From NCBI RefSeq assembly GCF_030408635.1, contig NZ_CP047198.1, positions 1,674,001-1,738,000 of the forward strand: a DNA stretch of 64,000 bases. The letters are read 5' to 3'. The first letter of the stretch is position 1, and every line of letters starts with the position of its first letter. The notes under the pieces are model-generated. The model searched no databases and was not told the origin of the DNA. It worked only from the letters and a program-made list of their open reading frames with translations. The translations under genes and the position numbers were made by a program. Positions 8,672 to 61,466 of the stretch are shown here, piece after piece. Source of the DNA: Corynebacterium coyleae. Its GTDB lineage: Bacteria; Actinomycetota; Actinomycetes; Mycobacteriales; Mycobacteriaceae.

Positions 8672-8689
8672 ACTATGCCGCTGCATAGT
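8672..8689 (+). repeat. 18-bp palindrome, copy 1
   Basis: ACTATGCCGCTGCATAGT: seven-base arms ACTATGC and GCATAGT around CGCT. First of six identical copies in the window. It lies in the divergent gap between the HNH gene and the protease gene, 49 bases (start to start) from copy 2 and in the same orientation. Confidence 0.9.
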
Positions 8690-8720
8690 TTGGAGCAGAC
8701 GGCGGTTCTTTGTTCGAAAA

Positions 8721-8738
8721 ACTATGCCGCTGCATAGT
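8721..8738 (+). repeat. 18-bp palindrome, copy 2
   Basis: Identical to copy 1, 30 bases before the protease start codon. Its right arm contains CATAGT at 8733-8738, which would fit as a -10 box 17 bases after TTGTTC (8710-8715); promoter function for the protease gene is an inference only. Confidence 0.9.
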
Positions 8739-8767
8739 CGACACATTCGTCGCCACGATGTGTCACC

Positions 8768-9931
8768 ATGACATCTGTGAAGATCATCCAAACGTTAATC
8801 TCGGTAGCGCTCGCATCCGCGACCACGCTCACTGCGCTCACTGCCTGTTCCGGTGCAGAAGATATCGCCGCCGATGCTCCCGAGACCAAACTGACACCGA
8901 CTGAGGTCGCCGAATTATGTCAGAACGCCGCCAGAAACGCGTCCACCGCCGACGGCGTTGCCTACGACGCCCTAACGGTCTATGCACACGAGGTGCCCAC
9001 CGACGCAATCACGGGACAGTCGTTCGACAGCGAGATCTCCGGTTTTCTCAGCAATGACGAATACATCGGTGAATTCACATTCCGTTGCAGGATCGACGAC
9101 TCCGACGCCCAAGTGAGCAGTTTTTATTTCCCTCCCGAGAACTTTCTCGCCCCGCAATCGGAATCCAGCCCCACAAGGCAAGCACAGCGACAGCACGCAC
9201 AGCCGCAGCAACCACAGGCGCAGGCCGTGGACCCGCAGCGCATCGACCCACGAAACAACGGCGCGGGAGTAACCGGCAGGGACGACAACCTGGGCATTTA
9301 CTATCACAACAAACAGGACTGGCTGTTTCTCGAGGCTCCGGGCAAGGTTGTACCTGGCGCGAAGATTTACAACGTGAACAAAAGCTACTGCTCTACTGGT
9401 TTTATCGCGTCGCGGGAGAACCGCACATTCATCGTTACTGCCGGGCACTGCGGCGATGTGGGTGACCAGTTCTACGTCAATAACCAATACGGCGGGTCAC
9501 TGGTTGTGGGCGAGATGGTCGAATCCTTCTACGAGCGCGACAACACGGGCTTTATCGGCACCGACATCGGACTGATTGAGATTTACGACGATGCCAAGCC
9601 GTACGTGGATTCCGCACTGCCCGTAAATTCCCGATTGAAGGGCTGGATCACCCCAGCCCAAGCGGGGCAAGGCAACATGACCATTTGCCGTCTCGGTGCC
9701 ACCACTGGCTACTCCTGCGGCAAATTCGTCGAGGTAGATAGGGCCGGCCAATTCGTGTTTCGCAACATCGCTGACAGAGGCGATTCCGGAGGCGCGATCT
9801 TCGCGTTCGACGGCACGGACGCATGGGCGCTAGGGGTGACGTCGAACGGCAGCGACTACAACAAGACGCTCACCAGCGGCATGGAAATCGCAGGCGCAAT
9901 GCAGCACTGGGGCCTCACGCTTCACGGCTAG
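8768..9931 (+). CDS. Secreted trypsin-like (S1 family) serine protease lipoprotein
   Basis: 387 residues from ATG 8768. An N-terminal lipoprotein signal ends LTAC (Cys27). Residues 30-125 form a pro- or accessory domain without a motif I know, followed by a Gln-rich linker (about 138-155). The protease domain carries the full catalytic triad: His227 in TAGHC, Asp266 in GTDIGLI and Ser340 in GDSGGA, with likely disulfide cysteines at 208/228 and 308/317. This is the alpha-lytic/streptogrisin-like branch of the chymotrypsin clan. It is expected to act on proteins outside the cell. The gene stands alone, bracketed by two pairs of an 18-bp palindrome, which may indicate that it moved as a unit. 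Target unknown. Confidence 0.88.
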   Translation: MTSVKIIQTLISVALASATTLTALTACSGAEDIAADAPETKLTPTEVAELCQNAARNASTADGVAYDALTVYAHEVPTDAITGQSFDSEISGFLSNDEYIGEFTFRCRIDDSDAQVSSFYFPPENFLAPQSESSPTRQAQRQHAQPQQPQAQAVDPQRIDPRNNGAGVTGRDDNLGIYYHNKQDWLFLEAPGKVVPGAKIYNVNKSYCSTGFIASRENRTFIVTAGHCGDVGDQFYVNNQYGGSLVVGEMVESFYERDNTGFIGTDIGLIEIYDDAKPYVDSALPVNSRLKGWITPAQAGQGNMTICRLGATTGYSCGKFVEVDRAGQFVFRNIADRGDSGGAIFAFDGTDAWALGVTSNGSDYNKTLTSGMEIAGAMQHWGLTLHG

Positions 9932-9942
9932 CCCCTAAAAAC

Positions 9943-9960
9943 ACTATGCCGCTGCATAGT
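9943..9960 (+). repeat. 18-bp palindrome, copy 3
   Basis: Identical to copies 1 and 2, starting 12 bases after the protease stop codon. Together with the inverted copy 4 it forms a larger stem of at least 20 bases (ACTATGC...AGTGG pairing with CCACT...GCATAGT) around a 15-base loop. Confidence 0.9.
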
Positions 9961-9977
9961 GGTCCGGGTCAGGATCC

Positions 9978-9995
9978 ACTATGCAGCGGCATAGT
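9978..9995 (-). repeat. 18-bp palindrome, copy 4 (reverse orientation)
   Basis: On the plus strand it reads ACTATGCAGCGGCATAGT, the exact reverse complement of the other copies. It sits 10 bases before the end of ileS on the opposite strand. Copies 3 and 4 therefore lie between the convergent protease and ileS genes and may act as a bidirectional terminator, although no strong T run follows. Confidence 0.9.
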
Positions 9996-10005
9996 CCGTC
10001 AGCGC

Positions 10006-13000
10006 CTAATTCTTGCGAACGGTGGCGGTCACACCGTCGACAACATCATGGCCTTCGACTGGTTCGGTGACCACATCGAAGGAGGTTGCCAACGTTTCAG
10101 CGGCGATGTGCTCTGCGTGACGACGAGCCCACTCCTCCTTCTCAGCCGGCACCGCAAGCACAACCGCAATGCGATCGGAGACCTCAAGGCCCTCACGCTT
10201 GCGCGCATCCTGCAGGCCACGGATGACATCGGCGGCCCAGCCTTCAGCCTCGAGTTCCTCAGTGACGTTGGTGTCCAGGACGACGAGGCCGACGGCGGCG
10301 AGGGCGTCGACACGCGCAGTGCTCTCCGGGTTCTCGGCGACGAGGCGCTCGGTGTAGAGCTCCGGAGTCAGCACGATGTCTCCGTCGACCACCACGTCGT
10401 CGCCACGACGCTCATAGTTGCCAGCCTTGACGTTCTTGATCGCGCGCTGGACATCCTTGCCCAGCTTCGGACCAGCAATCTTCGCATTAACGACGACCTC
10501 GAACGAACCAGCCGAGTCCACATCCGCGGTGAGCTCAACGTCCTTGACGTTCACTTCGTCGCGAATGGTGGAGCGGAACGGCTCAAGTAGATCAGCCTCT
10601 GGCAGAGCAACAGTGAGCTTCGGCAGTGGAAGACGGTTACGCAGCTTGTTCGCCTTGCGTACCGACGACGCCGCCGAACACACCGCACGCGTCGCATCCA
10701 TCGCAGCGACCAGGTCAGCATCCGCCGGCAGGTTGTCTGCCTTCGGGAAGTCAGTCAGGTGCACGGAACGGCCACCGGTCAGGCCACGCCAGATCACCTC
10801 AGAGATGTACGGCAGCAGCGGCGCGACCGTGCGGGTAACCACTTCGAGCACCGTGTAGAGCGTGTTAAACGCCTCCGGGTAGGCCTCCTGGCCTTCCCAG
10901 AAACGGTCGCGGGAGCGACGCACGTACCAGTTGGTCAGGGTGTCCGCGAAGCGACGCACCTCATCGCAAGCATCGGCGATGCGCGTGTCGTCGAGAGCCT
11001 CGCCCACGGCCTCAACCAAGTCGTGGGTCTTGGCCAGGATGTAACGGTCGAGCACGTTGTCGGAATCCACCGACCACTGAGCGTCCTCAGAGGAGTACAG
11101 CTGCAGGAAGGTGTACGCGTTCCAGATCGGCAACAGTGCCTGGCGCACGCCCTCACGGATACCCTGCTCAGTGACGATCAGGTTGCCACCACGCAGGATC
11201 GGCGAAGACATCAGGAACCAACGCATCGCGTCGGAACCGTCGCGGTCGAAAACCTCGTTGACGTTCGGGTAGTTGCCCTTGGACTTGGACATCTTCTGGC
11301 CGTCGGAACCAAGCACGATGCCGTGGGCGACGACCTTCTTGTACGCCACACGGTCGAACAGCGCGGTAGACAGCACGTGCTGGACGTAGAACCAGCCACG
11401 GGTCTGGCCCGAGTACTCAACGATGAAGTCAGCCGGCTGGCGAGCGTCGTGCTCTTCGCGGTTCTCAAACGGGTAGTGGTACTGCGCAAACGGCATAGAG
11501 CCGGATTCGAACCAGCAGTCAAGCACGTCCGGCACGCGGCGCATCATGGACTTGCCGGTCGGATCGTCCGGGTTCGGACGCACCAGTTCATCAATGTGCG
11601 GACGGTGCAGCGACTTGGGACGCTCACCGAAGTCACGCTCGAGCTCATCGAGGGAACCGTAGACATCCACGCGCGGGTACTCCGGGTTATCGGATACCCA
11701 CGCCGGCACCGGGGAGCCCCAGTAGCGGGTACGCGAAATGTTCCAATCGCGAGCGCCTTCGAGCCACTTGCCAAACTGGCCATCGCGGATGTGCGACGGG
11801 ATCCAGTCGATCTCCTGGTTGAGCTCGACCATGCGGTCGCGGATGTCGGTGACCTTCACAAACCATGCCGGCAGCGCCATGTAGATCAGTGGCTCGCCGG
11901 AGCGCCAGGAGTGCGGGTAAGAGTGGACGATGGTCTGGTCACGCACGACACGGCCCTTGGCGCGCAGGTCGCGGATGATGTCGCGGTTCGCGTCGAAGAC
12001 CAGCTTGCCTTCGTAGTCCGGAACCAGCGAGGTGAACTTGCCGTCGGCGTCGACGGGGATGACCAAATCGATGCCGTAGTCCTGGCAGGTGAACATATCG
12101 TCTTCACCGAAGGCGGGCGCCTGGTGGACGACACCGGTGCCGTCCTCGGTGGTGACGTAGTCCGCGTTAAGCACCATGAACGCGTTCTCGTGATCGCGGA
12201 AGTAGTCAAAGACAGGCTCGTATTCCAGGCCCTCGAGCTGGGCGCCGGTGAACGTGGAGATGACCTCGTACTCGCCGAGTTCCTTCGCGTATGCGCCGAG
12301 CAGGTTCGTCGCCAAGAGCAATGGCGTATCGACGACACCCTCATCCCCCGGCTTCACCAACGAGTACTCAACCTCCGGGTGAACCGCCAACGCCAAGTTC
12401 GACGGCAGCGTCCACGGCGTAGTGGTCCAGGCGATCGCAGCCGCATCGTGCAGTTCAGGGTGCTCAGCCCACGTCTTCTCCGCAGCGTAGCCGGCGCGCC
12501 CGCCGGTGAACGGCATGGTGACGGTGACGGTAGGGTCCTGGCGGTCGCGGTAGGAATCGTCGAGACGCGTCTCCTGGTTGGACAACGGCGTGTGCTCTGC
12601 CCAGGAGTACGGCAGCACACGGAAGCCCTGGTAGATCAAGCCCTTGTCGTAGAGCTCCTTGAACGCCCACATGACAGATTCCATGTACTCCGGGTCCATG
12701 GTCTTGTAGCCGTTCTCAAAATCGACCCAACGAGCCTGGCGGGTGACGTACTCTTCCCACTCGCCGGCGTAGTTCATGACGGACTTCGCGCAGTATTCGT
12801 TGAACTTCTCCAGGCCCATGTCCTCGATCTGGGCTTTGTCAGTGATGCCGAGCTGCTTTTCTGCCTCAAGCTCCGCAGGCAGACCGTGGCAGTCCCAGCC
12901 GAACACACGCGGCACATGGAAGCCGGTCATCGTGCGGTAGCGCGGAACGATGTCCTTGACGTAGCCCGTCAGCAGGTGGCCGTAGTGCGGCAGACCGTTA

Positions 13001-13170
13001 GCAAACGGCGGGCCGTCATTGAACACGTATTCTTCGCAACCTTCACGCTGCTCAAGCGATGCCTGGAACGTTTCATCCTTGTTCCAGTAGTCGAGCACAG
13101 CGCGTTCCATCTCGGGAAACTTGTCGCTGCCTCCGGTCATATCGACCTTAGGGTAGACGTTGCCAACCAT
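10006..13170 (-). CDS. ileS: Isoleucyl-tRNA synthetase
   Basis: 1054 residues from ATG 13170, with GGAGGAG four bases upstream. Charges tRNA-Ile with isoleucine; class Ia synthetase. The HIGH signature appears as HYGH (residues 62-65, in GLPHYGHLL) and the KMSKS loop as KMSKSKGN. The editing (CP1) domain and the anticodon-binding domain with [11 protein letters not shown] are in the normal order. HYGH and the adjacent sequence place it in the eukaryote-like IleS2 branch common in actinobacteria, which is generally less sensitive to mupirocin; that last point is family knowledge, not shown here. A T-box leader precedes the gene. Confidence 0.97.
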
Positions 13171-13174
13171 GACA

Positions 13175-13350
13175 CTCCTCCACACACAATCTGCAGGGAC
13201 GCATGTGCTGCGCGGTACCACCCTGCTTGGGGCGAAAGCCCCCACTTCATTTGTGGTGAAGGAAGTGACGTCTTCCCATTTAACGTCCGGTTCTAATAAG
13301 CGTAATGCCGTTCTTCCGGAATGCTCCCCGGTGATAGCCGGATCAAAGCG
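13175..13350 (-). promoter_or_regulatory. Ultrashort stem-I translational T-box riboswitch (tRNA-Ile sensing)
   Basis: The minus strand carries the T-box sequence AGGGTGGTACCGCG (13224-13211), which pairs with the uncharged tRNA acceptor end. Upstream, a short stem CCGG/CCGG encloses CTATCA with the isoleucine specifier AUC at 13335-13333, followed by the GGGGAGC and GGAAGAACGG elements seen in mycobacterial ileS leaders. A second hairpin GGGGGC/GCCCC lies just before the T-box. No terminator T run precedes the ATG, and the ribosome site GGAGGAG is inside the region, so regulation is expected at translation initiation: uncharged tRNA-Ile frees the site. Confidence 0.88.
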
Positions 13351-13353
13351 TTA

Positions 13354-13380
13354 CGCCCGGAAGTGTAGCACTCCCGGGCG
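13354..13380 (-). terminator. Hairpin after wag31, probable terminator
   Basis: A 12-bp stem CGCCCGGGAGTG/CACTTCCGGGCG with one G-U pair and a three-base loop starts eight bases after the wag31 stop codon. It lacks a good T run on the minus strand. It also overlaps a TACACT -10-like box (13367-13362) that could start the ileS T-box leader, so terminator and promoter may share the same DNA. Confidence 0.55.
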
Positions 13381-13388
13381 TTGAGGTT

Positions 13389-14348
13389 TTACTTCTCGTT
13401 CGGCGCCGTAGTTGAGCGGGCCTCGAGTTCCTCGAGCTGGGACTCAAGCAGCGTCTTCAGGCGAGTACGGTACTCGCGCTCGAAGGTGCGCAGCTCCGCA
13501 ATGCGATTCTCCAGCGCAGTCTGCTGCTGCTTCACCGTGTTCATAATCTCGGTGTGCTTGCGCTCTGCATCTGCCTTGAGCTTGTTGGCCTTCTCCTCCG
13601 CTTGGCGGATCTGGGCCTCGGCGCGGGAAGCGGCCTCGCCAGTGGTCTCCTCGGCCTTCTTCTGGGCCTCGGCGACGAGCTGCTTGGCGCGAGTCTCCGC
13701 CTCCTGCAGCTGAGACTGGGAGCGGGTCTGAGCGTCCTGCAGTTGCTTCTTGGACTTCGCCTCAGCCTCGGCCACCTCACGCTCTGCAGCGCTGCGTGCG
13801 TCTGCCAGCATGGAGGTTGCCTCTGCCTGGGCATCGCTGGTCAGACGGTCTGCCATCTCCTGTGCAAGGCCGAGCACCTTGGCAGCCTGGATGTGCGAAT
13901 CTTGCGAAGGCTCTGCCTTCTGCGGGGCGGTGTTGACCGCCTTGGACACGCCTTCAGCCGGACGCTTCGCAGCCTGTGCGCGAGCTTCCTCAGCCTGCTT
14001 GCGGGCTGCTGCCGCATCTTCCTTGGCAGCCTTAGCCTCAGCCTCAGCCTTGTCCTTGGCTTCCTTCGCGGAACGCAGCTGCGCCTCGTAGTCAGCGCGG
14101 ATCTTCTGCTCCACCTCGCGGCGGATTGCAGCCTCGTCTGCGGAAGAACCGGCTGCTGCCGGTGCCGCTACGCCAGCGCCACCCTCTTCGAGTCGTGCGC
14201 GGAGCTCTTCGTTTTCATCCTGGAGCTGTGCAAGCGCGTCTTCAACCAGGTCGAGGAACTGATCAACTTCGTCCTCGTTGTAGCCCCGCTTGCCAATCGG
14301 GGGCTTGCTGAAAGCGACATTGTGCACGTCAGCTGGCGTCAACGGCAT
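13389..14348 (-). CDS. wag31: DivIVA-family polar growth protein Wag31
   Basis: 319 residues from ATG 14348 ([17 protein letters not shown]), with AAGGGA upstream. The N-terminal 60 residues are the membrane-binding DivIVA domain with the [15 protein letters not shown] motif. An Ala/Gly/Pro linker (about 80-95) leads into a long Ala/Glu/Lys coiled coil (about 100-305). In corynebacteria and mycobacteria this protein marks the cell pole and recruits the elongation machinery; it is usually essential and can be phosphorylated by Ser/Thr kinases. Its location upstream of ileS and downstream of yggT, sepF and ftsZ is the conserved order. Confidence 0.95.
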
Positions 14349-14375
14349 TTGCGTTCCCTTCATGTTCTTGTAACG

Positions 14376-14393
14376 GACCCGCGTCTGCGGGTC
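14376..14393 (-). other. Small hairpin in the wag31 upstream region
   Basis: GACCCGC/GCGGGTC around a four-base loop, 28 bases before the wag31 start. It would lie in the 5' untranslated region if the promoter is in the AT-rich stretch 14409-14460. Role unknown; it could affect mRNA stability. Confidence 0.4.
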
Positions 14394-14479
14394 GCGAATG
14401 CGCCCCACGTTACGGGAACGTACTTAATTTGTCTGCTGAATTGTAACTGTTTCGTCTACACAACGCACATGACAGCGCG

Positions 14480-14788
14480 CTAATGCAGTGCCGGAACGAT
14501 CATCGTCGCCCGAATAACCATCTGGAGCAGCGAAAGCGCCAGGAATAGCACGATCACGCTCACGTCGAGCCCCACTCCCCCGTTCAACCTCAACGGGGGG
14601 ATGAGCTTGCGCAATGCAAACACTGGAGGGTCGGTGATCTTGAACAGTGGTTCCGCCACCATGATGAACCAGTGTGGCGGGTCGAAGTGCTTCGAGAAGG
14701 CCTGAATCATCTCAATGATGATGCGCACGACGACAAATAGCGAGTAGATGCCGATGACGGCGTAGAGAATTGCTCCGATAAGTGCCAC
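14480..14788 (-). CDS. yggT: YggT-family membrane protein
   Basis: 102 residues from GTG 14788. Two hydrophobic segments (about 4-28 and 74-97) flank the PPHWFIMVAEPLFKITDPPVFALRKLIPP core, which is the YggT family signature. It lies between sepF and wag31, as in other actinobacteria. The family is linked by gene context to division and polar growth, but its biochemical role is not established. Confidence 0.9.
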   Translation of the reverse strand: MALIGAILYAVIGIYSLFVVVRIIIEMIQAFSKHFDPPHWFIMVAEPLFKITDPPVFALRKLIPPLRLNGGVGLDVSVIVLFLALSLLQMVIRATMIVPALH

Positions 14789-14810
14789 GCGTTCACACCC
14801 TACAGGTTCG

Positions 14811-15293
14811 CTAGCGCAGGCCTGCAGAGCGCTTCAGCGCATCTTTGTCCACGTTGGCGTTTTCCGGGACGATGGCAAACAGGCGCTTGCGAGTGTCCTC
14901 ACCACGGGACAGGTTGTGCATGCTGCCGCGCAGGCCGAAGCACAGGCCAGCAGCAAAGTCGACGATGCGCTTCGCGTCGGCGGTATCCAGGTCGGTCAGA
15001 TCCATAACCACTGCGTCGCCATCGCGGAACGGCTCGCCGATCTCCTTGGCATCGTTGTAATTACGCGGAGACACGTTGACGATGCGCGGGGTCGGACGGT
15101 AGCTGGCGCGTGTCGACGACACCTCGCGGTGGTCACGCTCATAACGCGACGGACGCTCAGCACGGTCGTACGCGCCAGCGCCAGCAGTCGAGGAAGTTTC
15201 GGAGTAGCGCGAATCCTCAAAGTAGGCGTCGTCCTCGTTGTTCTCGATCGGACCGAGGCCGAAGAATTCTTTTGCGCTGCCAAAGAAGGACAT
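14811..15293 (-). CDS. sepF: Cell division protein SepF
   Basis: 160 residues from ATG 15293 (MSFFGSAKEFFGLG), with AAGGAG eight bases upstream. The first residues form the amphipathic membrane-binding helix. An acidic, Ser/Arg-rich linker (about 20-75) leads to the SepF core (about 75-150; VVMDLTDLDTADAKRIVDFAAGL). In Corynebacterium SepF tethers FtsZ to the membrane and is essential, replacing FtsA, which is missing here. The FtsZ partner tail is present in the gene at 16748. Confidence 0.95.
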   Translation of the reverse strand: MSFFGSAKEFFGLGPIENNEDDAYFEDSRYSETSSTAGAGAYDRAERPSRYERDHREVSSTRASYRPTPRIVNVSPRNYNDAKEIGEPFRDGDAVVMDLTDLDTADAKRIVDFAAGLCFGLRGSMHNLSRGEDTRKRLFAIVPENANVDKDALKRSAGLR

Positions 15294-15328
15294 AGTGGGG
15301 CTCCTTGGGGGTGGTTTTGCAATGAAGG

Positions 15329-16733: not shown

Positions 16734-16747
16734 GCCAGCCAGTCTAA

Positions 16748-17962: not shown

Positions 17963-18055
17963 AGCGTAAGTCTCGCCTTTCAAAACTCGGGTGTGCAGTT
18001 GCGTCCCATCATGTTGGAAAGCGAAGCATTTTTTGTGTTCTCCCCCGGCGTGTCT

Positions 18056-18082
18056 CAACCCTAAACCTGTACTTTAGGGTTG
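18056..18082. other. Perfect 10-bp inverted repeat between ftsQ and ftsZ
   Basis: CAACCCTAAA and TTTAGGGTTG are separated by seven bases. On the minus strand the hairpin begins 13 bases after the ftsQ stop codon and about 94 bases before ftsZ. No T run follows, so it could be an attenuator, an RNA stability element that separates ftsQ and ftsZ levels, or a protein-binding site. Confidence 0.65.
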
Positions 18083-18094
18083 TGACCTGGGCTT

Positions 18095-33137: not shown

Positions 33138-33139
33138 AT

Positions 33140-37790: not shown

Positions 37791-39092
37791 ATGGCAACAC
37801 TCGCTCCAGGCACAACTCTCGACGAACGCTACGTCGTGGACCGCGCCATCGCCCGTGGTGGCATGGCCACGGTGTATCGCTGCATCGATTCCCGCCTGGG
37901 CCGGGAAGTCGCTGCGAAAGTCATGCACGAGCAATACGTCCACGACGCGGTGTTTCGCGACCGATTCCGGCGCGAAGCCCGCGCGATGGCGCAGCTCAGC
38001 CACCCGAACTTGGTCAACGTGTACGACTTCTCCGCGTCCGGCAACAACGTGTTTCTCATCATGGAACTCATCACCGGCGGCACGCTGCGCGAATTGCTCG
38101 CCGAGCGTGGTCCGATGCCTCCCCACGCAGCCGCGGAGGTGATGCGCGGCATGCTCACGGGACTTTCTGTCGCGCATGAGAAAGGCATGGTGCACCGCGA
38201 TATTAAGCCGGACAACGTGCTTATCGACGCCTCCAGCCGCGTCAAACTCTCCGACTTCGGCCTCGTGCGCGCAGCCGCCGAAAACACACATTCGACCGAC
38301 CAAATCGTGGGCACCGTCGCCTACCTCTCCCCTGAACAAGTCGACGGCAGCCCCATCACAGCCGCATCGGATGTGTACTCCGCCGGCATCGTGTTGTTCG
38401 AACTCCTCACCGGCCGCACGCCATTTCACGGCGACACCCCCATCGCGCACGCGTACGCACGCCTCCATGGAGATGTGCCCGCGCCGTCCTCACTCATTGC
38501 CGGGGTGCCAATGCTTTTCGACGAGCTCGTCGCCACCGCAACCGCCCGCACCCCCGAAGCGCGCTTCCGCGATGCGGGAGAATTCCTCGCCGCACTCGAC
38601 GACGTAGCAGCCGAACTTGCACTGCCGGACTACACCGTGCCTGCCCCGCGCAACGCCGCAGCCACGCGAGCCGCAGCACACCCGACTAACTTCGGACTGG
38701 TCAACAACGCCGCACAGCGACGCCTCTTCCCCGATGACGAGGCGCCAACGCGAGTCGCCCCCGCAGTTGAGAGGCCAACTAAGCAGGCGTCCCCAGAACT
38801 GCCGTCACGCAGCCAATGGCCCGCTGCACAGGCGTCTCCGGCTCCGGTTCCGGCCCCCGTTCCGCCTGCAGCCGCCCCCGTGCCCGCACCCGTGCCACCA
38901 CGTGCACCCCGGCCTGCCGCTCCCAATCCGGCAAAGCGCCCCGCAGTCAAGCCGGTAACTAACCGCTCTCTGATCGGTGTCGTGCTCTACACCGCTGTTG
39001 CAATCGCCGTGGTAGCTGCGGTTGGTCTGGGCGCGTGGTGGTTCGGCTCCGGGATGTATGGCGACATCCCGGAGATCGTCATCCCGCGGTAG
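37791..39092 (+). CDS. pknL: Membrane Ser/Thr protein kinase PknL
   Basis: 433 residues from ATG 37791, probably leaderless. Kinase domain at about 12-270: Gly loop ARGGMATVYR, Lys43 in AAKVM, HRDIKPDN (Asp137, Asn142) and Asp155-Phe-Gly. A Pro/Ala-rich linker (about 300-385) leads to one transmembrane segment (about 394-416) and only some 15 outer residues. There are no PASTA domains, which matches PknL and separates it from PknB. Gene order with the Rv2175c-like gene and aroG supports the name. Convergent with aroG. Confidence 0.92.
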   Translation: MATLAPGTTLDERYVVDRAIARGGMATVYRCIDSRLGREVAAKVMHEQYVHDAVFRDRFRREARAMAQLSHPNLVNVYDFSASGNNVFLIMELITGGTLRELLAERGPMPPHAAAEVMRGMLTGLSVAHEKGMVHRDIKPDNVLIDASSRVKLSDFGLVRAAAENTHSTDQIVGTVAYLSPEQVDGSPITAASDVYSAGIVLFELLTGRTPFHGDTPIAHAYARLHGDVPAPSSLIAGVPMLFDELVATATARTPEARFRDAGEFLAALDDVAAELALPDYTVPAPRNAAATRAAAHPTNFGLVNNAAQRRLFPDDEAPTRVAPAVERPTKQASPELPSRSQWPAAQASPAPVPAPVPPAAAPVPAPVPPRAPRPAAPNPAKRPAVKPVTNRSLIGVVLYTAVAIAVVAAVGLGAWWFGSGMYGDIPEIVIPR

Positions 39093-39113
39093 CGCTGGCC
39101 GAGTAGCGCTGTC

Positions 39114-40559
<1,446 letters not shown>

Positions 40560-51106: not shown

Positions 51107-51112
51107 GCATGC

Positions 51113-51955: not shown

Positions 51956-51973
51956 GGCTACGTTCTCTCTTTC

Positions 51974-53473: not shown

Positions 53474-55396
53474 ATGTGCGGTCTTGTTGCACTGTTGACT
53501 GCCCGCGGCGATGCCCCAGTGTTTACCGACGCGGTCGGTCGCTCGCTTTCCTGCATGTATCACCGCGGCCCTGACGCTGCGGGAACATGGAACGACGATG
53601 ACGCTGTTTTCGGCTTTAACCGCCTGGCGATCATCGACATCGAGCACTCCCACCAGCCACTGCGCTGGGGGCCGGCAGAAAACCCCGAACGTTACGCCCT
53701 GACGTTTAACGGCGAGATTTACAACTACGTGGAGTTGCGCGAGGAACTCACCAAGGCCGGATACACCTTCAACACTGCTGGTGATGGCGAACCGATCGTG
53801 GTCGGTTTCCACCACTGGGGCGCCAACGTGGTTGAGCATCTGCGCGGCATGTTCGCCTTTGTCATCTGGGACACTGAGACCAAGACGATGTTTGCAGCGC
53901 GCGACCAGTTCGGCATCAAGCCATTGTTCTATGCGACGACCGACAAGGGCACCGTTTTTGCCTCCGAGAAGAAGTCGATCCTGGAGATGGCCGACGAGCT
54001 AGGTCTAGGCCTCGACCTTGATCGCCGTGCAATCGAGCACTACGTGGACCTGCAGTACGTCCCGGAACCGGAGAGCCTGCACCGCGAGATCCGTCGCGTG
54101 GAGTCGGGCTGCACCGTGACTATCAAGCCGGGTGGCGAGGTCCACTCGGACCGCTACTTCAAGCCACACTTCAATTCCCAGCCTGTGCCAAAGGGCAAGG
54201 AGCAGGACCTGTACGACAGGATTGCCCGGGCGTTGGAGGATTCCGTCGAAAAGCATATGCGCGCTGACGTGACGGTTGGTTCCTTCTTGTCTGGCGGCAT
54301 CGACTCCACGGCGATCGCGGCGCTGGCGAAGCGTCACAATCCGAACCTGTTGACCTTCACCACTGGTTTTGAGCGGGAGGGCTATTCCGAGGTGGACGTC
54401 GCTGCAGAGTCGGCGGAGGCGATTGGTGTGGAGCACATCGTGAAGATTGTCTCCCCGGAGGAGTACGCTGACGCGATTCCGAAGATCATGTGGTACCTCG
54501 ACGATCCGGTCGCTGACCCTTCCCTGGTGCCACTGTTCTTCGTGGCACAGGAGGCGCGCAAGCACGTCAAGGTTGTGCTGTCCGGTGAGGGCGCAGACGA
54601 GCTTTTCGGCGGCTACACCATTTACAAGGAACCGTTGTCGCTCGCACCGTTTGAGAAGCTGCCGAGCGCGCTGAACAAAGGACTCAACCGTCTCAGCCGT
54701 GTGCTCCCGGAGGGTATGAAGGGCAAGAGCCTGCTCGAGCGCGGCACTACTCCAATGGAGGATCGGTACTACGGCAACGCTCGCTCGTTTAACTTCGAAC
54801 AACTCCAGCGCGTTCTGCCGTGGGCGAAGCGCGAGTGGGACCACCGCGAGGTCACCGCACCGATCTACGCTGCCTCGACACAGATGGATCCGGTGGCACG
54901 TATGCAGAACCTGGACCTGTTCACCTGGATGCGCGGCGACATTCTGGTCAAGGCCGACAAGATGAACATGGCAAACTCCCTGGAGCTGCGCGTTCCGTTC
55001 CTGGACAAGGAAGTCTTCGAGGTCGCGCAAACGATCCCGTATGACCAGAAGATTGCCAACGGCACCACGAAGTACGCGCTGCGTAAGGCGATGGAGCAGA
55101 TCGTTCCGCCTCACGTGCTGCACCGCAAGAAGTTGGGCTTCCCGGTACCAATGCGTCACTGGCTGGCCGGCGACGAGCTCTTCGGCTGGGCGCAGGACAC
55201 GATCCGCGAGTCGCAGACCGACGACATCTTCGCCAAAGACCAAGTCCTGGAGATGCTCAAGGAGCACCGCGACGGCGTGTCCGACCACTCGCGCCGTCTA
55301 TGGACGGTGCTGGCGTTCATGGTCTGGCACGGCATTTTCGTGGAAAACCGCATCGATCCCCAGATCGAGCACAAGGATTACCCGGTCGAGCTGTAG
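53474..55396 (+). CDS. ltsA: LtsA-type glutamine amidotransferase (asparagine synthase-like)
   Basis: 640 residues from ATG 53474, with AGGAGAGG upstream. The mature N-terminal Cys2 (MCGLVALL) is the glutaminase nucleophile; NGEIYNYVELRE and GDGEPIV follow. The synthetase domain has the pyrophosphatase loop SGGIDSTAIA and SGEGADELFGGY. In Corynebacterium the homologue next to ctaCF amidates the diaminopimelate of peptidoglycan; loss causes lysozyme sensitivity. AsnB activity is the alternative, but location and length favour LtsA. Confidence 0.9.
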   Translation: MCGLVALLTARGDAPVFTDAVGRSLSCMYHRGPDAAGTWNDDDAVFGFNRLAIIDIEHSHQPLRWGPAENPERYALTFNGEIYNYVELREELTKAGYTFNTAGDGEPIVVGFHHWGANVVEHLRGMFAFVIWDTETKTMFAARDQFGIKPLFYATTDKGTVFASEKKSILEMADELGLGLDLDRRAIEHYVDLQYVPEPESLHREIRRVESGCTVTIKPGGEVHSDRYFKPHFNSQPVPKGKEQDLYDRIARALEDSVEKHMRADVTVGSFLSGGIDSTAIAALAKRHNPNLLTFTTGFEREGYSEVDVAAESAEAIGVEHIVKIVSPEEYADAIPKIMWYLDDPVADPSLVPLFFVAQEARKHVKVVLSGEGADELFGGYTIYKEPLSLAPFEKLPSALNKGLNRLSRVLPEGMKGKSLLERGTTPMEDRYYGNARSFNFEQLQRVLPWAKREWDHREVTAPIYAASTQMDPVARMQNLDLFTWMRGDILVKADKMNMANSLELRVPFLDKEVFEVAQTIPYDQKIANGTTKYALRKAMEQIVPPHVLHRKKLGFPVPMRHWLAGDELFGWAQDTIRESQTDDIFAKDQVLEMLKEHRDGVSDHSRRLWTVLAFMVWHGIFVENRIDPQIEHKDYPVEL

Positions 55397-55412
55397 GTAG
55401 TGCCAGCACTAC
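55397..55412 (+). other. Small hairpin after ltsA
   Basis: GTAGTG/CACTAC around CCAG begins at the base after the ltsA stop codon. It is followed eight bases later by a second hairpin. The two could together form the 3' end structure of the ltsA mRNA. Confidence 0.5.
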
Positions 55413-55419
55413 CCCAGTT

Positions 55420-55448
55420 GGGCAGCCGTCTGTATTGTCGGGCTGCCC
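55420..55448 (+). terminator. Probable ltsA terminator hairpin
   Basis: GGGCAGCC/GGCTGCCC with a 13-base loop, 24 bases after the ltsA stop and 23 bases before the S41 protease start. It lacks a T run, so termination efficiency is uncertain, and read-through into the protease gene is possible. Confidence 0.45.
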
Positions 55449-55470
55449 GTTCGCCGGTTGAATGTGGTGT

Positions 55471-56463
55471 ATGTCAACTGCAAAGAAAGTACTCACCACC
55501 ATCGCCGCGGTGTTCGGCGTCCTGTTGATCGCCGCCGGCGCCGTCGCTTATGTGTACGGGCCGACTGTGACGGCGATGTTCACCGGCACCGCCAAGTTCA
55601 TGGGCACTGATACCCCGAAGCGTTACGCTTCAACGGTGCTTAACCTGGCAGAGCAGGGCATTTACGCCGACTCGAAGGAGTTCGAGGACGCGAAGGCCCG
55701 CGCAAAGGAGGCCGCCAAGCAAGCAGATACGCTTTTCGACGTCTACCCCGCCCTGGAGGACGCCGTCAAAGCTGCTGGCGGGAAGCACTCCCGGCTGATT
55801 GAACCTGATAACCCTAACCTCGGCTGGACTATGGAAGAGAAGTCGGAAGCCACAGTAAGCGTCGAGGACCGCGTTGCGGTGGCAACGGTGCCTGGCGTCG
55901 ACCGTCACTCGGATGTGCAGGGGTACGCAGACACGCTCGCAACGGGTCTTGCTTCCGCGCGTGATGCCGGGGCATGCGGGGCGGTCGTTGATCTGCGTGG
56001 CAACGACGGGGGCGACATGGGTCCTATGATCGCCGGTCTCTCCTCGCTGTTGCCGGATGGCACGGTGCTCGAATTCGTATCGCGGACGAACACCAGCCAG
56101 GTCACGGTTGAGGGAAACTCGGTGAGCGGCGGGGGCACCCCGGTGACTACATCTGGAGGGAAGTGGGAGGCGCCGGTGGCGGTCTTAGTCGATGGCGACA
56201 CTGCTTCGTCGGGCGAGGCCACGATGCTGTCGTTCCGGGGGCTTGAGCACTCCCAAAGCTTCGGGTCCCCTACCGCGGGCTACGCCTCGGCTAATATGGT
56301 GTACGACTTCCCGGATGGCAGCCTGCTGATGCTCACCATCGCGAAGGACAAGGCACGCACTGGCGAGGAGTTCGCCGAAGATCCGGTGCAGCCGGACGTC
56401 GAAACCGATACGCCGTTAGAGCAAGCGAAGCAGTGGCTTGCCACCGAGCACGGCTGCAAATAG
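55471..56463 (+). CDS. S41-family (tail-specific type) peptidase, membrane-anchored
   Basis: 330 residues from ATG 55471 (MSTAKKVLTTI). One N-terminal transmembrane or signal segment (about 9-31). The protease part has GAVVDLRGNDGGDMGPMIAGLSSLL and the catalytic serine segment DGDTASSGEATMLSFRG followed by SFGSPTAGYAS, as in S41 enzymes; a lysine general base is not certain, because the usual SxxxxK spacing is not obvious. No PDZ domain is visible, so it is shorter than CtpA. Extracytoplasmic role presumed. Ends at a bidirectional terminator. Confidence 0.82.
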   Translation: MSTAKKVLTTIAAVFGVLLIAAGAVAYVYGPTVTAMFTGTAKFMGTDTPKRYASTVLNLAEQGIYADSKEFEDAKARAKEAAKQADTLFDVYPALEDAVKAAGGKHSRLIEPDNPNLGWTMEEKSEATVSVEDRVAVATVPGVDRHSDVQGYADTLATGLASARDAGACGAVVDLRGNDGGDMGPMIAGLSSLLPDGTVLEFVSRTNTSQVTVEGNSVSGGGTPVTTSGGKWEAPVAVLVDGDTASSGEATMLSFRGLEHSQSFGSPTAGYASANMVYDFPDGSLLMLTIAKDKARTGEEFAEDPVQPDVETDTPLEQAKQWLATEHGCK

Positions 56464-56476
56464 TCCACACAGACGA

Positions 56477-56520
56477 AACACCCCGCGCTCCCCTCAATAA
56501 TGAGGTGGGCGCGGGGTGTT
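56477..56520. terminator. Bidirectional terminator
   Basis: A 12-bp outer stem AACACCCCGCGC/GCGCGGGGTGTT plus an inner CCTCA/TGAGG helix with an ATAA loop. It lies between the converging S41 protease and ErpA-type genes. Confidence 0.8.
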
Positions 56521-56539
56521 GGCGTCGATAAGCAGCGGC

Positions 56540-56884
56540 TTAGTTGAAGCTATCGCCACAAGCGCAAGCGGAACCTGCGTTCGGGTTATCGATGGTGAAG
56601 CCCTGCTGCTCGATGGTGTCCGCGAAATCGATCGTCGCACCCGTGAGGTACGGCACGCTCATCTTGTCCACGACAAGACGCACGCCACCAACCTCATCGG
56701 CCTTGTCGCCGTCCAGGTCGCGGTCGTCGAAGTAGAGCTGGTAGCGCAGACCAGCGCAGCCACCAGGCTGAACAGCGATGCGCAGGGACAGGTCGTTGCG
56801 GCCCTCCTGATCAAGCAGGGCCTTCGCCTTCGCCGCCGCTGCCTCGGTGAGGTTCACGCCAGTTGCGGAAGTAGGTGCAGTCAT
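56540..56884 (-). CDS. ErpA/IscA-type iron-sulfur cluster carrier
   Basis: 114 residues from ATG 56884. A-type carrier (HesB family) that delivers iron-sulfur clusters. The three conserved cysteines are present: one in PGGCAGLRY and two in the C-terminal ACACGDSF. The position beside the cta/qcr and ltsA genes is conserved in mycolata. Divergent from the DUF3043 gene. Confidence 0.93.
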   Translation of the reverse strand: MTAPTSATGVNLTEAAAAKAKALLDQEGRNDLSLRIAVQPGGCAGLRYQLYFDDRDLDGDKADEVGGVRLVVDKMSVPYLTGATIDFADTIEQQGFTIDNPNAGSACACGDSFN

Positions 56885-57021
56885 TGGGTACTCCTTCGTG
56901 CTACGCGTTCGAGTGGCGCCCATGCTACGCGCGCCCCTTCATAGCCGGTGTAACGGTTCTCCCCCGCAATCTATTCCCACTGGTTACAGGAATGTCGCGG
57001 TGGCCTTGTAGCCTAGGTGGC

Positions 57022-57738
57022 GTGAAACTACCCTGGCAAAAATCCGAGCAGACCGCTGAGGCTGGTTCGACCAAGGCCGAACTGCCCCAGACCGACAACG
57101 CGCCCGCGGCAGACACCCCAGAGGCCGCAGAGCAGAAGCTTCCGAAGGGCTACACCCCGCCGAAGGGCAAGCCGACGCCGAAGCGACTTGATCAGGAGAT
57201 CAAGCGCGGTGTTGTGCGCGACCCGAATGCGGCCACCCCGGCGCAGATTCGTCAGCGTGAAAAAGAGCTGAAGAAGTCCATGACCAAAGAGGAGTGGAAG
57301 GCGCACAAGAAGCAGGTGCGCGAGGAGAATCGGGCCCGCAACCGCGAGATGCAGGCCAAGATCGACTCGGGCGACGAGCGCTACCTCATGGAGCGCGACA
57401 AGGGCGAGGAGCGTCGCTTCATCCGTGACTGGGTGGACTCGCAGCGCTTCTTCAACAACTACGTCATGCCGATGGCGCTGGTGCTGCTAATCGTGATGTT
57501 GATCGGCACGTGGCTGCCTCGCGTCGCGGCGGCATTGTCTTTGGTGAGCCTGCTGTTTATCGTCACCATCTTCATCGAGGGCATCATCATCGGCATCCGC
57601 GCCAACCGTGCGGTCCGTGCAAAGTTCCCGGAGGCGAACACTGGTTTCAGCCTGGGTATGTACGCGTTCTCCCGCGCTACTCAGCCGCGTAACTGGCGCT
57701 CCCCCAAGCCGCGGGTGGCGTTGGGCGCGAAGGTATAG
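57022..57738 (+). CDS. DUF3043 membrane protein
   Basis: 238 residues from GTG 57022; TAGCCT at 57009-57014 lies seven bases upstream, so probably leaderless. The N-terminal half is a charged, Lys/Glu-rich cytoplasmic region (KKSMTKEEWKAHKKQVREEN), then two transmembrane segments (about 150-170 and 174-196) preceded by RRFIRDWVDSQRFFNNYVMP, the DUF3043 hallmark. Actinobacteria-specific, function unknown. Three bases separate it from cobT. Confidence 0.88.
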   Translation: MKLPWQKSEQTAEAGSTKAELPQTDNAPAADTPEAAEQKLPKGYTPPKGKPTPKRLDQEIKRGVVRDPNAATPAQIRQREKELKKSMTKEEWKAHKKQVREENRARNREMQAKIDSGDERYLMERDKGEERRFIRDWVDSQRFFNNYVMPMALVLLIVMLIGTWLPRVAAALSLVSLLFIVTIFIEGIIIGIRANRAVRAKFPEANTGFSLGMYAFSRATQPRNWRSPKPRVALGAKV

Positions 57739-57741
57739 CCC

Positions 57742-58728
57742 ATGCAGTTTCCCCCGGTTGAGCCGCCGAAACGCGCGCATGCCCGTGCGGTGGCGGATGC
57801 GTTGGCAGGTGGCACGAGTGGCGTTGCCCTTGGAAGGCTGGGGGCGATCGGTGCGTGGGTTGCCTCCGTACAAGGCCGTGACGTGCCCACACCGTTTCTG
57901 CGCCCGCGTGCCGTGATCGTCGCTGGCAATCACGGCATTGCTACGCGAGGTTTGTCGGCGTGGACATCGGATGCCGGCGCCGCTCAGGTTGAGCAGCTGC
58001 GCGCCGGTGTCGGCCCTGCCTCCACGACGGCGCGGGTTGCGGGAGCGAGCATCAGGCTTATCGACGACTACCTGGACACCCCCACCGGCGCCATCGACGT
58101 GGAACCCGCCGTGTCGCAAGACGTGTGGGATGCGGCGTTGGCTGCGGGTGCAGAGATCGCCGATAGTGAAATCGACGGCGGTGCTGACCTGCTGATCCCC
58201 GGAGACATCGGCGTTGGCAACACCACCGTCGCCGCGGCGGTGTACGGCACGTTTACGCGCACTGAGCCCGCAAAGGCGATCGGGCGTGGCTCCGGCATCA
58301 ACGATGAGGTCTGGAAGATCAAGGTCGCCGCTATTCGCGACGCGATGTTCCGCGTGCGCAGATTCCGCGACGACACCGAACGTGTCTGCGCGGAACTCAC
58401 CGGCCCGGACTTCGCCTGCCTGGTCGGCTTCATCGCCCAGGCCGCCGCGCGCCGCACGCCGTTGCTTATCGACGGCGTCTACCCCGCCGTCGCCGCATAC
58501 GTCGCCGAACGCCTCGCACCCGACACCAAAGACTGGCTCATGGCAGCGCAGGAGGCGAACGAGCCGGCGCAGGCTGGCTGCTTCGAAGCGCTCGGGCTTC
58601 GACCGTTGCAACACCTGGATATGAAAACGGGCCAGGGCGCTGGGGCCCTGGCCGCGTTGCCGCAGTTAAACCTGGCGGCGGAGATGGTTGGCGAGGTGCT
58701 CGCCGGGGGATCGTCGATAAGCGACTAG
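57742..58728 (+). CDS. cobT: Nicotinate-nucleotide--dimethylbenzimidazole phosphoribosyltransferase
   Basis: 328 residues. Activates the lower ligand of cobalamin. The fold motifs [26 protein letters not shown] (the GEMGIGNTT region) and [10 protein letters not shown] (the phosphate-binding loop) are recognisable. cobS and cobU, which usually accompany it in mycobacteria, are absent here; ilvE follows directly and its 3' end overlaps by four bases on the other strand. The shortened neighbourhood suggests cobalamin salvage or an isolated relic. Confidence 0.9.
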
Positions 58729-59831
58729 CCCTCGACGAGCGTGAGGTTCCAACCGTGGGTGTCCTCGACCTCGCCGGTCTGGATGCCGCGCAGACGCTCG
58801 CGCATTGCCAGGGTGATCTCGCCGGCCTCGTTGTTATTCACCGTGAACTCGCCCTCGTTGCTGAGCACGCGGCCAACCGGGGTGATCACAGCTGCGGTGC
58901 CGCACGCCATGGTCTCGGAGATGGTGCCGTCCTCGGCACCAGCACGCCACTGCTCGACGGTGATCTTGCGCTCCTCGCTGGTGTAACCCAGGTCTTCTGC
59001 GACCTGCAGCAGCGACTTACGCGTAATGCCCGGCAGGAGCGAACCGGACAGGGACGGGGTGATGATCTTCGCGTCCTTGCCGGAGCCTTCGACGAACATG
59101 AGGTTCATGCCGCCCATTTCCTCGATGTACTTGCGCTCGATCGCGTCGAGCCACACCACCTGGTCGCAGCCCTTGTCCGCAGCCTGCTGCTGCGCAAGCA
59201 GGGACGCTGCGTAGTTGCCGGCGAACTTCGCATCGCCGGTGCCACCCGGTGCTGCACGGACGTAGTCTTCGGAGATCCACACGCTGACCGGTTTCACACC
59301 ACCCTTGAAGTAGGCGCCTGCCGGGGAGGCGATGATGTAGAAGGAGTACGACGAGGACGGCTTCACACCCAGGGTCTTCTCCGTGCCGATCATGAATGGA
59401 CGCAGGTACAGCGACGCCTCGCCGCCAGCTTCAGGTACCCACTTCTGGTCGATGGTGACCAACTGGCGCACGGCCTCCAAGAAGTCCTCATCCGGCAGTT
59501 CCGGCATTGCCATACGACGCGCGGAGCTGCGCATACGCTCAGCGTTTTGCTCCGGACGGAACGCGGTGATGCGCCCATCGGTGTGGCGGTACGCCTTCAG
59601 GCCCTCGAAGATCGCCTGGCCGTAGTGGAAGACGTTGGCGGCCGGGTCGAGCGCGATCGGTTCGTACGCGCGCACCTGGGCGTTGTGCCAGCCTTTGTCT
59701 TCGGTCCAGTCGATGGAAACCATGTGGTCGGTGAACTCCTGGCCGAACGCCGGGTTAGCGAGGATCTTTTCACGCTCAGCATCGGTTGCGGGGTGGTCTG
59801 ACGGGGTAACTGCGAATTCGAGGTTAGACAT
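58725..59831 (-). CDS. ilvE: Branched-chain amino acid aminotransferase
   Basis: 368 residues from ATG 59831. Fold-type IV PLP enzyme, last step of Leu/Ile/Val synthesis. The PLP lysine is Lys202 in [48 protein letters not shown] and the [15 protein letters not shown] cofactor loop are all present. Only 72 bases separate it from the divergent pepA. Confidence 0.97.
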
Positions 59832-59903
59832 GTGGCCCACGTTACTCCGTGGCTATGTACCCTCGGGAGGCAATCCTGTTCAATTGTCAGAAAGGTGTTG
59901 TTT

Positions 59904-61388
59904 ATGTCGTTCGATGTCACACTTCCTGCCCGCGGTACGACGGTGCGCGCGGTTGCCGGTTCTGCCGCCCCTGAGGGCGCTGTGCTGCTGGTTCCGGTCG
60001 CACAGGGCGAAGACGGAGTCGAACTTCCTGTCACCCAACTTGCCCCGAAGGGCCTGCTTGAAGCCCTCGTTGCGGTCGGCGCGAAGGGTACGGCTAACGA
60101 GGTCACCCGCGTTGTCGTCGACGGCACGCTGGTCATCGCGTACGGCCTCGGCGACGCGAACGACATTGACGACGAAGCCGTGCGCCGCGCCGTCGGTGCC
60201 GTCACCCGCACCCTCAATGGGGTGGAAAAGGCAGCTATCTCCGCCGAGTTCGGCGTCCAGCCGGTCGTCGAGGGCCTCCTGCTCGGCGGCTACGTTTACA
60301 ACGGTCTGAAGTCCACCGCCAACACGCTTGACGACGACAACACCGACGCCGAACTCCCCCAGACCACCGAAGTCACCGTGGTCGGCGCAGACGAGAAGGC
60401 GTTCGAGCAGGCCGTTATCGTCGCCGAGTCGGTCAACCTGGCCCGCGACCTTGTCAACACCCCGTCAAACTTCCTCTACCCCGAGTCCTACGCCGCTGTC
60501 ATGGGCGAGGTTGCTTCGGCGGCCGGCCTGGACATCGAGGTGCTCGACGACAAGGCGCTTGAAGATCAAGGCTTCGGCGGCATCCTCTCCGTCGGTCGCG
60601 GCTCCGCACGTACCCCGCGCCTGGTCCACCTGACGTGGGCGCCGTCCGGGGCGACGAAGAAGGTCGCGCTTGTGGGCAAGGGCATCACCTTCGACACTGG
60701 TGGCATCTCGCTGAAGCCGGGCTCCGGCATGGAGGACATGATCTCCGACATGGGCGGCTCCGCAGCACAGCTCGGCGTCATCGCCGCTGCCGCCCGCCTT
60801 GAGCTGCCAGTGCGTATCGACGCCTGGCTGCCCCTGGCCGAGAACATGCCATCCGGCACCGCCACCCGCCCGGGCGACGTGATCACCCACTACGGCGGCA
60901 TCACCAGCGAGGTCATCAACACCGACGCCGAAGGCCGCCTCGTCCTTGCCGACGCCATCGCCCGCGCCTGCGAGGACAACCCCGATTACCTCATCGAAAC
61001 CGCAACCCTCACCGGCGCACAGCTGGTCGCCCTGGGCAACCGCACCTCCGGCGTGATGGGGTCCGACGACCTGCGCGACCTCATCGCCGAGACAGGCCGT
61101 GCCGTCGGTGAGCAGGCTTGGGCTATGCCGCTTCTCGAGGAGCAGGAAGACGAGCTGAAGTCCCCCATCGCTGACATCCGCAACACCCACAACGCCCGCA
61201 CCGGCGGCATGCTCTTCGCCGGCCTCTACCTCTCCCGCTTCGTGCCGGAGAACGTCGAGTGGGCTCACATCGACATCGCCGGTCCGGCCTGGAACGGCGG
61301 CGGCGCCTGGGGCTACACCCCGAAGCGCGCAACCGGCGCCCCGGTCCGCACAATCCTCGAGGCGCTCAACCGCCTGGCTGCGAAGTAG
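59904..61388 (+). CDS. pepA: Leucyl aminopeptidase (M17 family)
   Basis: 494 residues from ATG 59904 (MSFDVT). N-terminal domain about 1-160, then the catalytic domain: VGKGITFDTGGISLKPG, DMGGSA, the metal site NTDAEGRLVLADA, and the C-terminal GGGAWGYTP. Two zinc or manganese ions are expected. Removes N-terminal residues from peptides in the cytoplasm. In C. glutamicum the gene at this locus is called pepB. The 3' side carries two palindromes. Confidence 0.96.
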   Translation: MSFDVTLPARGTTVRAVAGSAAPEGAVLLVPVAQGEDGVELPVTQLAPKGLLEALVAVGAKGTANEVTRVVVDGTLVIAYGLGDANDIDDEAVRRAVGAVTRTLNGVEKAAISAEFGVQPVVEGLLLGGYVYNGLKSTANTLDDDNTDAELPQTTEVTVVGADEKAFEQAVIVAESVNLARDLVNTPSNFLYPESYAAVMGEVASAAGLDIEVLDDKALEDQGFGGILSVGRGSARTPRLVHLTWAPSGATKKVALVGKGITFDTGGISLKPGSGMEDMISDMGGSAAQLGVIAAAARLELPVRIDAWLPLAENMPSGTATRPGDVITHYGGITSEVINTDAEGRLVLADAIARACEDNPDYLIETATLTGAQLVALGNRTSGVMGSDDLRDLIAETGRAVGEQAWAMPLLEEQEDELKSPIADIRNTHNARTGGMLFAGLYLSRFVPENVEWAHIDIAGPAWNGGGAWGYTPKRATGAPVRTILEALNRLAAK

Positions 61389-61408
61389 GCGTTTGAGGCA
61401 ATACGGCC

Positions 61409-61426
61409 ACTATGCCGCTGCATAGT
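61409..61426 (+). repeat. 18-bp palindrome, copy 5
   Basis: ACTATGCCGCTGCATAGT, identical to copies 1-3, 21 bases after the pepA stop. It lies 40 bases (start to start) from copy 6 in the same orientation. Confidence 0.9.
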
Positions 61427-61448
61427 CCCCCGCTCTCGAGCCGACAGG

Positions 61449-61466
61449 ACTATGCCGCTGCATAGT
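61449..61466 (+). repeat. 18-bp palindrome, copy 6
   Basis: Identical to copy 5, 18 bases before a 73-bp nested palindrome. Located between pepA and a convergent hypothetical gene, about 51.5 kb from the other two pairs. Confidence 0.9.

Follow-up and report, generated by a model that had tools for sequence, protein, structure and literature searches.

Free-standing HNH homing endonuclease genes adjoin the sequence that is presumably recognised by their product, and Rv3074 and Rv3776 are members of the 13E12/DUF222-HNH family of Mycobacterium, characterised by a C-terminal HNH domain and a DUF222-like N-terminal part. According to the available parts of the papers cited here by PMC number, HNH genes of M. 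tuberculosis range among the SOS- or LexA-linked genes and are SOS-induced (PMC7911356, PMC8151990, PMC4181829), the function of the mycobacterial SOS-induced HNH proteins is given as unknown, and REP13E12/HNH/DUF222 itself figures as a repetitive element. In RAYT systems, short palindromes of the repetitive extragenic palindromic (REP) type occur beside or around the gene of their cognate enzyme and their type tracks the enzyme phylogeny (PMC2817692, PMC3733652); such REPs usually number more than 100 copies per genome (PMC2817692). The present analysis concerns a stretch of 64,000 nucleotides of Corynebacterium coyleae (contig NZ_CP047198.1, positions 1,674,001 to 1,738,000; hereafter the window), which contains six copies of an 18-bp palindrome, ACTATGCCGCTGCATAGT, four of them close to a gene for an HNH endonuclease. 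In many Corynebacterium species such palindromes are paired with genes of this HNH family and dispersed beyond them, their type co-varies with the protein tree, they are present or absent at orthologous sites, and the HNH motif is conserved. These observations suggest that the HNH protein recognises the palindrome. Probably, the palindromes are REP-like cognate sites of an adjacent, SOS-regulated, DUF222-like HNH nuclease, site and family having diversified together.

The resemblance to RAYT REPs, REPtrons and REPINs comprises short imperfect palindromes that are intergenic, clustered and dispersed, a cognate enzyme gene, and a palindrome type following the enzyme phylogeny, as far as the available descriptions of these systems go. 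In contrast to them, the Corynebacterium partner is an HNH nuclease rather than a tyrosine (Y1/HUH) transposase, the palindrome is mostly confined to the upstream flank, the scanned genomes hold no more than 43 copies each versus more than 100 (PMC2817692, available part), the GT(A/G)G head is missing, and a LexA-like promoter site is present. The family resembles the 13E12/DUF222-HNH proteins in its C-terminal HNH domain, in a possible DUF222-like N-terminal part (weak in Corynebacterium) and in the LexA-box-like sites before many of its genes, LexA boxes being reported for HNH genes of M. tuberculosis; no cognate dispersed palindrome was found for the Mycobacterium family in the searched, partly available literature. 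As with homing endonucleases, the HNH gene is located next to its presumed recognition sequence, which is here, however, an intact short palindrome with many chromosomal copies and not a unique, element-interrupted site. CGTC-tagged REPs are likewise REP-like palindromes without RAYT, but differ in sequence, and the available part of PMC3733652 knows no dedicated enzyme for them.

Pairing of palindromes and HNH genes

With the HNH protein of the window as query, 123 places were detected in 56 of 201 Corynebacterium genomes (some rows being two pieces of one gene); outside the genus, 249 genomes of the order yielded two matches, both weak. Flanks were read at 88 HNH loci, comprising the top 82 rows and six of lower strength, and palindromes were defined as NNNYGC-N2-5-GCRNNN or TCCGCANTGCGGA within 350 bp upstream of the HNH gene. 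The adjacency count omits L166-L171, which had been chosen for known palindromes or dispersal, and hence refers to 82 loci. A palindrome was present upstream at 59 of these, downstream at 13 and on either side at 64; among the automatically returned loci (L107-L136, best per genome), 26 out of 30 had one upstream. Control open reading frames (ORFs) of the same loci possessed a palindrome in 2 of 38 cases, shuffled upstream regions in a mean of 1.9 of 88 (maximum 5), and ORFs elsewhere in 11 of 151, two of the latter being the HNH and protease genes of the window. At 49 of 65 loci (drawn from all 88, L166-L171 included), 80 to 180 bp separate the nearest upstream palindrome from the start; across the family, the palindrome centre mostly comprises 3-4 bases. 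Six HNH genes (L118, L156, L189, L193, L205, L206) are flanked on either side by one and the same type, with 0 to 10 bp separating the stop codon from the downstream copy, and five (L124, L125, L152, L197, L202) have a downstream palindrome only.

Ten half-site types were distinguished: CTATGC, CTCTGC, CTCCGC, GTCCGC, the shorter TCCGC, TTCTGC, TTCCGC, GTGCGC, GTATGC and GTCTGC. Placed on the HNH tree (87 proteins, 69 labelled), they require 20 changes, compared to a mean of 47.4 and a minimum of 40 in 200 shuffles, a clustering to which near-identical orthologues contribute. Three genomes (G130, G098, G118) each harbour HNH paralogues paired to different palindromes; the palindrome type therefore tracks the type of HNH protein and not merely the species. 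In G098, the CTATGC and GTATGC palindromes of the two paralogues also recur together in mixed arrays (L103, L104). The genome of the window (G000; 2.51 Mb, one contig) likewise has two paralogues, the window gene with CTATGC (L107) and a second gene with TCCGCAATGCGGA (L146).

Dispersal was scanned for four palindrome types in 201 genomes each, the cut of at least five copies having been set after the counts were seen. This yielded 25 genome-by-type cases (CTATGC 12, CTCTGC 4, ACTCCGC-N3 5, TTCTGC 4), all of them in HNH-bearing genomes, and an HNH gene adjoins the same type in 21 (CTATGC 11, CTCTGC 3, ACTCCGC-N3 5, TTCTGC 2). Genomes without an HNH match held at most 4 copies. ACTCCGC-N3-GCGGAGT has an adjoining HNH gene, one with an internal stop, in 8 of the 8 genomes holding this palindrome, and TCCGCANTGCGGA occurs in 4 to 43 copies in all 14 genomes chosen as HNH-bearing versus 0 to 2 copies in 10 HNH-less ones.

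The HNH family and its LexA-like sites

The HNH domain scored above cut-off in all six proteins scanned. DUF222 remained below cut-off in four of five Corynebacterium proteins and was unlisted for the fifth; it exceeded the cut-off in a non-Corynebacterium homologue (L174). Across 51 proteins, the HNH part keeps two histidines, an asparagine and one more histidine without exception; three cysteines are likewise invariant and a fourth is nearly so. A working nuclease therefore seems to be retained in the family, as judged from these residues. Solved-structure matches with E under 0.1 fall in the HNH part. Assignment to a defence system or another named family was rejected, PADLOC and NCBIfam matches being weak or below cut-off and mostly confined to the HNH part, and so was an origin of the gene from a phage or plasmid, given that no phage matched and the sole plasmid hit, in Rhodococcus, was 25% identical. 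In the window, the HNH gene is followed by the DNA polymerase IV gene (span 5827-8556); in G122, a related HNH gene adjoins not DNA polymerase IV but an error-prone DNA polymerase gene. The latter is distinct from dnaE, at whose 3' end further arrays are found (below): the identity amounts to 30%, and the gene agrees with the model of error-prone DNA polymerase. Both neighbours are thus polymerase genes of damage tolerance.

Sites resembling TCGAAC-N4-GTTCGA with up to two mismatches precede 45 of 87 HNH genes, compared to 11 of 1740 shuffles, and are very like the Streptomyces LexA motif tCGAAC-N4-GNNCGa given in the available part of PMC9380542. From these sites we infer SOS induction of the HNH genes in Corynebacterium. 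The homologue L174, a distant DUF222-HNH gene from another genus of the order (G294), is preceded by an exact LexA-type box, TCGAAC-N4-GTTCGA, contained in a palindrome whose distance to the start is 28 bp.

Copies, arrays and empty sites

The following features of the window are relevant here (palindromes and the comparison gap carry no strand):

8672..8689, palindrome copy 1, about 115 bp upstream of the HNH start, to which it is the closest copy
8721..8738, palindrome copy 2, exact 18-mer
9943..9960, palindrome copy 3, exact 18-mer
9978..9995, palindrome copy 4, with the asymmetric centre reversed, immediately beyond the ileS stop
61409..61426, palindrome copy 5, flanked by the convergent leucyl aminopeptidase gene and by a small gene
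61449..61466, palindrome copy 6, exact 18-mer
7252..8556, minus strand, gene for a 434-aa HNH endonuclease (PF01844 HNH domain, weak DUF222), the proposed palindrome partner
8591..8606, minus strand, LexA/SOS-box-like site TCGAACACCTATACGA, 34 bp before the HNH start, with 2 mismatches to TCGAAC-N4-GTTCGA
8768..9931, plus strand, trypsin-like protease gene, separating the first two palindrome pairs
39090..39116, comparison gap flanked by the genes of a Ser/Thr kinase and a class II DAHP synthase, about 27 bp including the stop codons, palindrome-free

The 18-mer is exact at 8672, 8721, 9943, 61409 and 61449 (plus) and at 9978 (minus), precisely where the first-pass annotation had located it. 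All six copies fall between identified genes, as it had stated, and shuffles of the window gave a mean of 0.01 matches even at up to three mismatches, in agreement with its view that the recurrence exceeds chance. The first two pairs share one interval, extending from ileS to the HNH gene with the protease gene in the middle. This protease gene (8768-9931) is absent from the ileS-HNH interval of 8 compared related species and is possibly cargo.

Genome-wide, 13 copies of the exact 18-mer and 18 copies of CTATGC-N4-GCATAG were found, as opposed to none of the reversed control pattern. Three are singles (751847, 1258023, 2019962), and the others form pairs, one triplet (one member mismatched) and one six-copy cluster; therefore the pair is not the unit. 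The impression that copies come only in pairs thus held inside the window and was lost genome-wide, where clusters comprise 1 to 6 copies. The related idea of a functional or mobile two-palindrome unit found no support: arrays hold 1 to 12 copies at varied spacings (e.g. 34, 45/46, 55, 67, 92 and 102 bp) and sequence conservation ends at about the 18-mer. Thirteen of the 18 copies fall between 1646970 and 1735465, and one copy with a single mismatch also lies within 1646934-1735465. Replication terminus (ter) sites were rejected as an identity of the palindromes, the best dif-like match (1304090) lying outside this copy-rich region. Five copies adjoin rRNA operons, which were identified visually through their 5S-like sequence; downstream of these operons, mixed arrays of TCCGCAWTGCGGA, GTTGGT-N-ACCAAC-like and CTATGC palindromes were observed (L015, L016, L018, L019), and the TCCGCAWTGCGGA of these arrays matches the palindrome upstream of the second HNH gene of this genome (L146).

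The anatomy of the palindrome was studied in 130 copies from the core species, i.e. the group defined below. Their arms are nearly invariant, which is partly a selection effect of the threshold of at most one arm mismatch used for picking them. The centre takes 14 forms (AGCT 50, CGCT or AGCG 50, others 30), so that the identity of the CGCT centre remarked upon earlier applies to the window copies and not beyond. The conserved block coincides with the symmetrical 18-mer: flank information amounts to 0.3-0.4 bits at one base out and to near 0 beyond, and a GT(A/G)G head is absent from these copies, conservation ending at the 18-mer. The whole-genome and related-genome counts that the first-pass annotation had called for revealed the motif to be commoner than chance, dispersed and intergenic, and not mostly single and coding. 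In the broad sense of the term (short, repeated, extragenic, palindromic) these elements are REPs, though of low copy number.

The CTATGC pattern was found in 16 of 201 Corynebacterium genomes. A core group of 10 genomes, including G000, possesses a closely related HNH gene (54-100% identical), and ten Corynebacterium species including that of the window contain the same repeat near the HNH gene family, the arrays reaching 12 copies. Orthologous array sites are located between an aminotransferase-IV (pabC-like) gene and uvrA (9 species), between ileS and the HNH gene (9 species), between the Ser/Thr kinase and class II DAHP synthase genes (5 species) and at the dnaE 3' end (2 species). Spacers within the arrays are variable, some spacer modules being common to different species, and tandem units of 46, 92 and 148 bp occur.

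In the proposed comparison of orthologous sites, palindromes were missing at some sites in relatives. At the leucyl aminopeptidase site, the two palindromes of the window are absent in six of six relatives, two of the gaps measuring merely 21 and 25 bp. Conversely, the kinase/DAHP synthase gap is devoid of palindromes in the window, whereas five relatives hold 1 to 5. At the dnaE site, G000 has six palindromes and G016 five or six; all three relatives examined are palindrome-free. The leucyl aminopeptidase gap of G159 (L159) is 2.2 kb and thus far longer than in the other relatives, and it contains a copy of TCCGCAATGCGGA. Within the dnaE array of G000 (L014:7652-7736 and 7800-7884; about 1667652-1667884), two diverged dnaE 3' ends, stop included, are situated between palindromes; this was the one clear copied gene end between palindromes among 51 gene ends tested.

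Explanations weighed

If the palindromes are sites of the HNH nuclease, the following course of events may be envisaged. Upon DNA damage the HNH protein would be made; it would bind its own palindrome, as duplex or extruded hairpin, and nick or cut there, and repair of the break might then duplicate, delete and spread palindromes, often at gene ends. Binding, cutting and an HNH-driven spread of the palindromes are, in this sense, what we infer from the genomic pattern. A wider proposal, put forward tentatively since it could go either way, is that of a second, independent class of enzyme-driven REPs, in which SOS-induced DUF222-like HNH nucleases recognise, cut and propagate their own palindromes, with about ten specificities in one genus.

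Several observations weigh against an HNH nuclease acting on the palindromes. No such palindrome is present on either side at 18 of the 82 HNH loci, about 30 weaker HNH places lie outside the flank sample, and the orthologues are non-independent and inflate the counts. By eye, no target-site duplication was seen at the doubly flanked HNH genes, and the other array sites read contain no HNH relics; for the latter reason, the palindromes were also rejected as remnants of decayed HNH elements. An HNH neighbour of matching type is lacking in four of the 25 dispersal cases: two in G092 (360 contigs), one in G104 and one in G159 (TTCTGC, a 27-bp tandem array). The TTCTGC type resides beside its own gene only with both copies in G180 and with 2 of 3 in G049, and such gene-side-only palindromes would equally be explained by an operator. 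Finally, several arrays are orthologous in up to nine species, and therefore the spread need not be recent.

The main rival is an operator-like upstream site, by which the HNH protein or a co-inherited regulator would control the HNH promoter, other copies being decoys or chromosome-structural elements and mobility playing no part. The favoured distance of the nearest upstream copy (80-180 bp before the start at 49 of 65 loci), the confinement of some palindromes to the side of the gene and the resemblance of the conserved 18-bp block with its variable centre to a dimer site all fit it. However, the palindrome of the window gene (L107) is, by eye, situated upstream of a promoter-like and LexA-like sequence, arrays of up to 12 reside between convergent genes distant from the HNH promoter, some copies are found at the HNH stop codon, and the nuclease motif is invariant, rendering this reading rather unlikely. 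Passive hitch-hiking, i.e. neutral repeats multiplied by slippage and recombination, with HNH genes merely favouring repeat-rich intergenic regions, would account for the array turnover, the shared spacer modules, the tandem units (46, 92 and 148 bp) and the single case in which a neighbouring gene end recurs, diverged, among the palindromes. It is nevertheless hard to reconcile with control ORFs of the same loci, which mostly lack palindromes (2 of 38 have one), and with palindrome types that follow the HNH type within single genomes (G130, G098, G118), and is considered quite improbable.

About equally improbable is the notion of transcription terminators, according to which the palindromes would be bidirectional gene-end hairpins multiplied by ordinary duplication. 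Many copies do occur at convergent gene ends, and on the minus strand a terminator is called at 9942-9961 (one of four copies in the scanned stretch passing). Yet the stem reaches merely -7 to -7.6 kcal/mol and a T-rich flank is present on either side in at most 36 of 130 copies, so that the stable GC-rich stem and T run of an intrinsic terminator are wanting, and neither the sequence-specific arms nor the HNH pairing and co-variation would be explained. A known RNA family was also rejected, the two matches in window positions 8300-10100 falling far below gathering scores. The first-pass annotation had favoured RAYT-mobilised REPs or bacterial interspersed mosaic elements (BIMEs), and short, intergenic, clustered and dispersed palindromes near a candidate enzyme gene do agree with it. 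This part of its proposal, a dispersed REP-like palindrome beside a candidate gene, has endured, but the gene encodes an HNH endonuclease, and the RAYT domain PF01797 is absent from 25 of 27 palindrome-bearing genomes, with no match in G000; the same search, which covered the presence of the domain, gave matches in 5 of 14 control genomes and in the two remaining palindrome-bearing ones. RAYT involvement is hence extremely unlikely.

Should the HNH proteins indeed act on their adjacent palindromes, the enigmatic 13E12-type HNH family would gain its substrate. The pairing offers many Corynebacterium HNH proteins a testable DNA site, and the about ten half-sites represent a natural series for studying how such a protein recognises its site. 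A nuclease-driven spread of the palindromes would mean that REP-like repeats have originated with an enzyme that has no relationship to the RAYT transposases; genomes with REPs but without RAYT may then hide further enzyme-repeat pairs. In the literature on DUF222, 13E12, HNH, REP, RAYT and LexA, which was available in part and covered few subscription papers, no pairing of a dispersed palindrome with an HNH gene was found, and the RepRanger text (PMC12306157) makes no mention of HNH, RAYT, Corynebacter or nuclease.

Other repeats accompany or resemble the palindromes. A recurrent element of about 100-160 bp, similar to miniature inverted-repeat transposable elements and with ends near TTTGTACGAATTTACATGC and TTTTGCA-TTTCGTTTAG, was noticed by eye in arrays of site 1 (L081, L084, L087, L096, L099) and at the aminopeptidase site of L157. 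Similar arms, for which no search for a link to the HNH family was made, are displayed by a palindrome pair on a viral contig (L073) and by arrays in the Bacillota metagenome-assembled genome RGIG2938 (L043 and other loci). The latter are tandem arrays of CTATGCACGTGCATAG with a period of about 32 bp, often located near contig ends.

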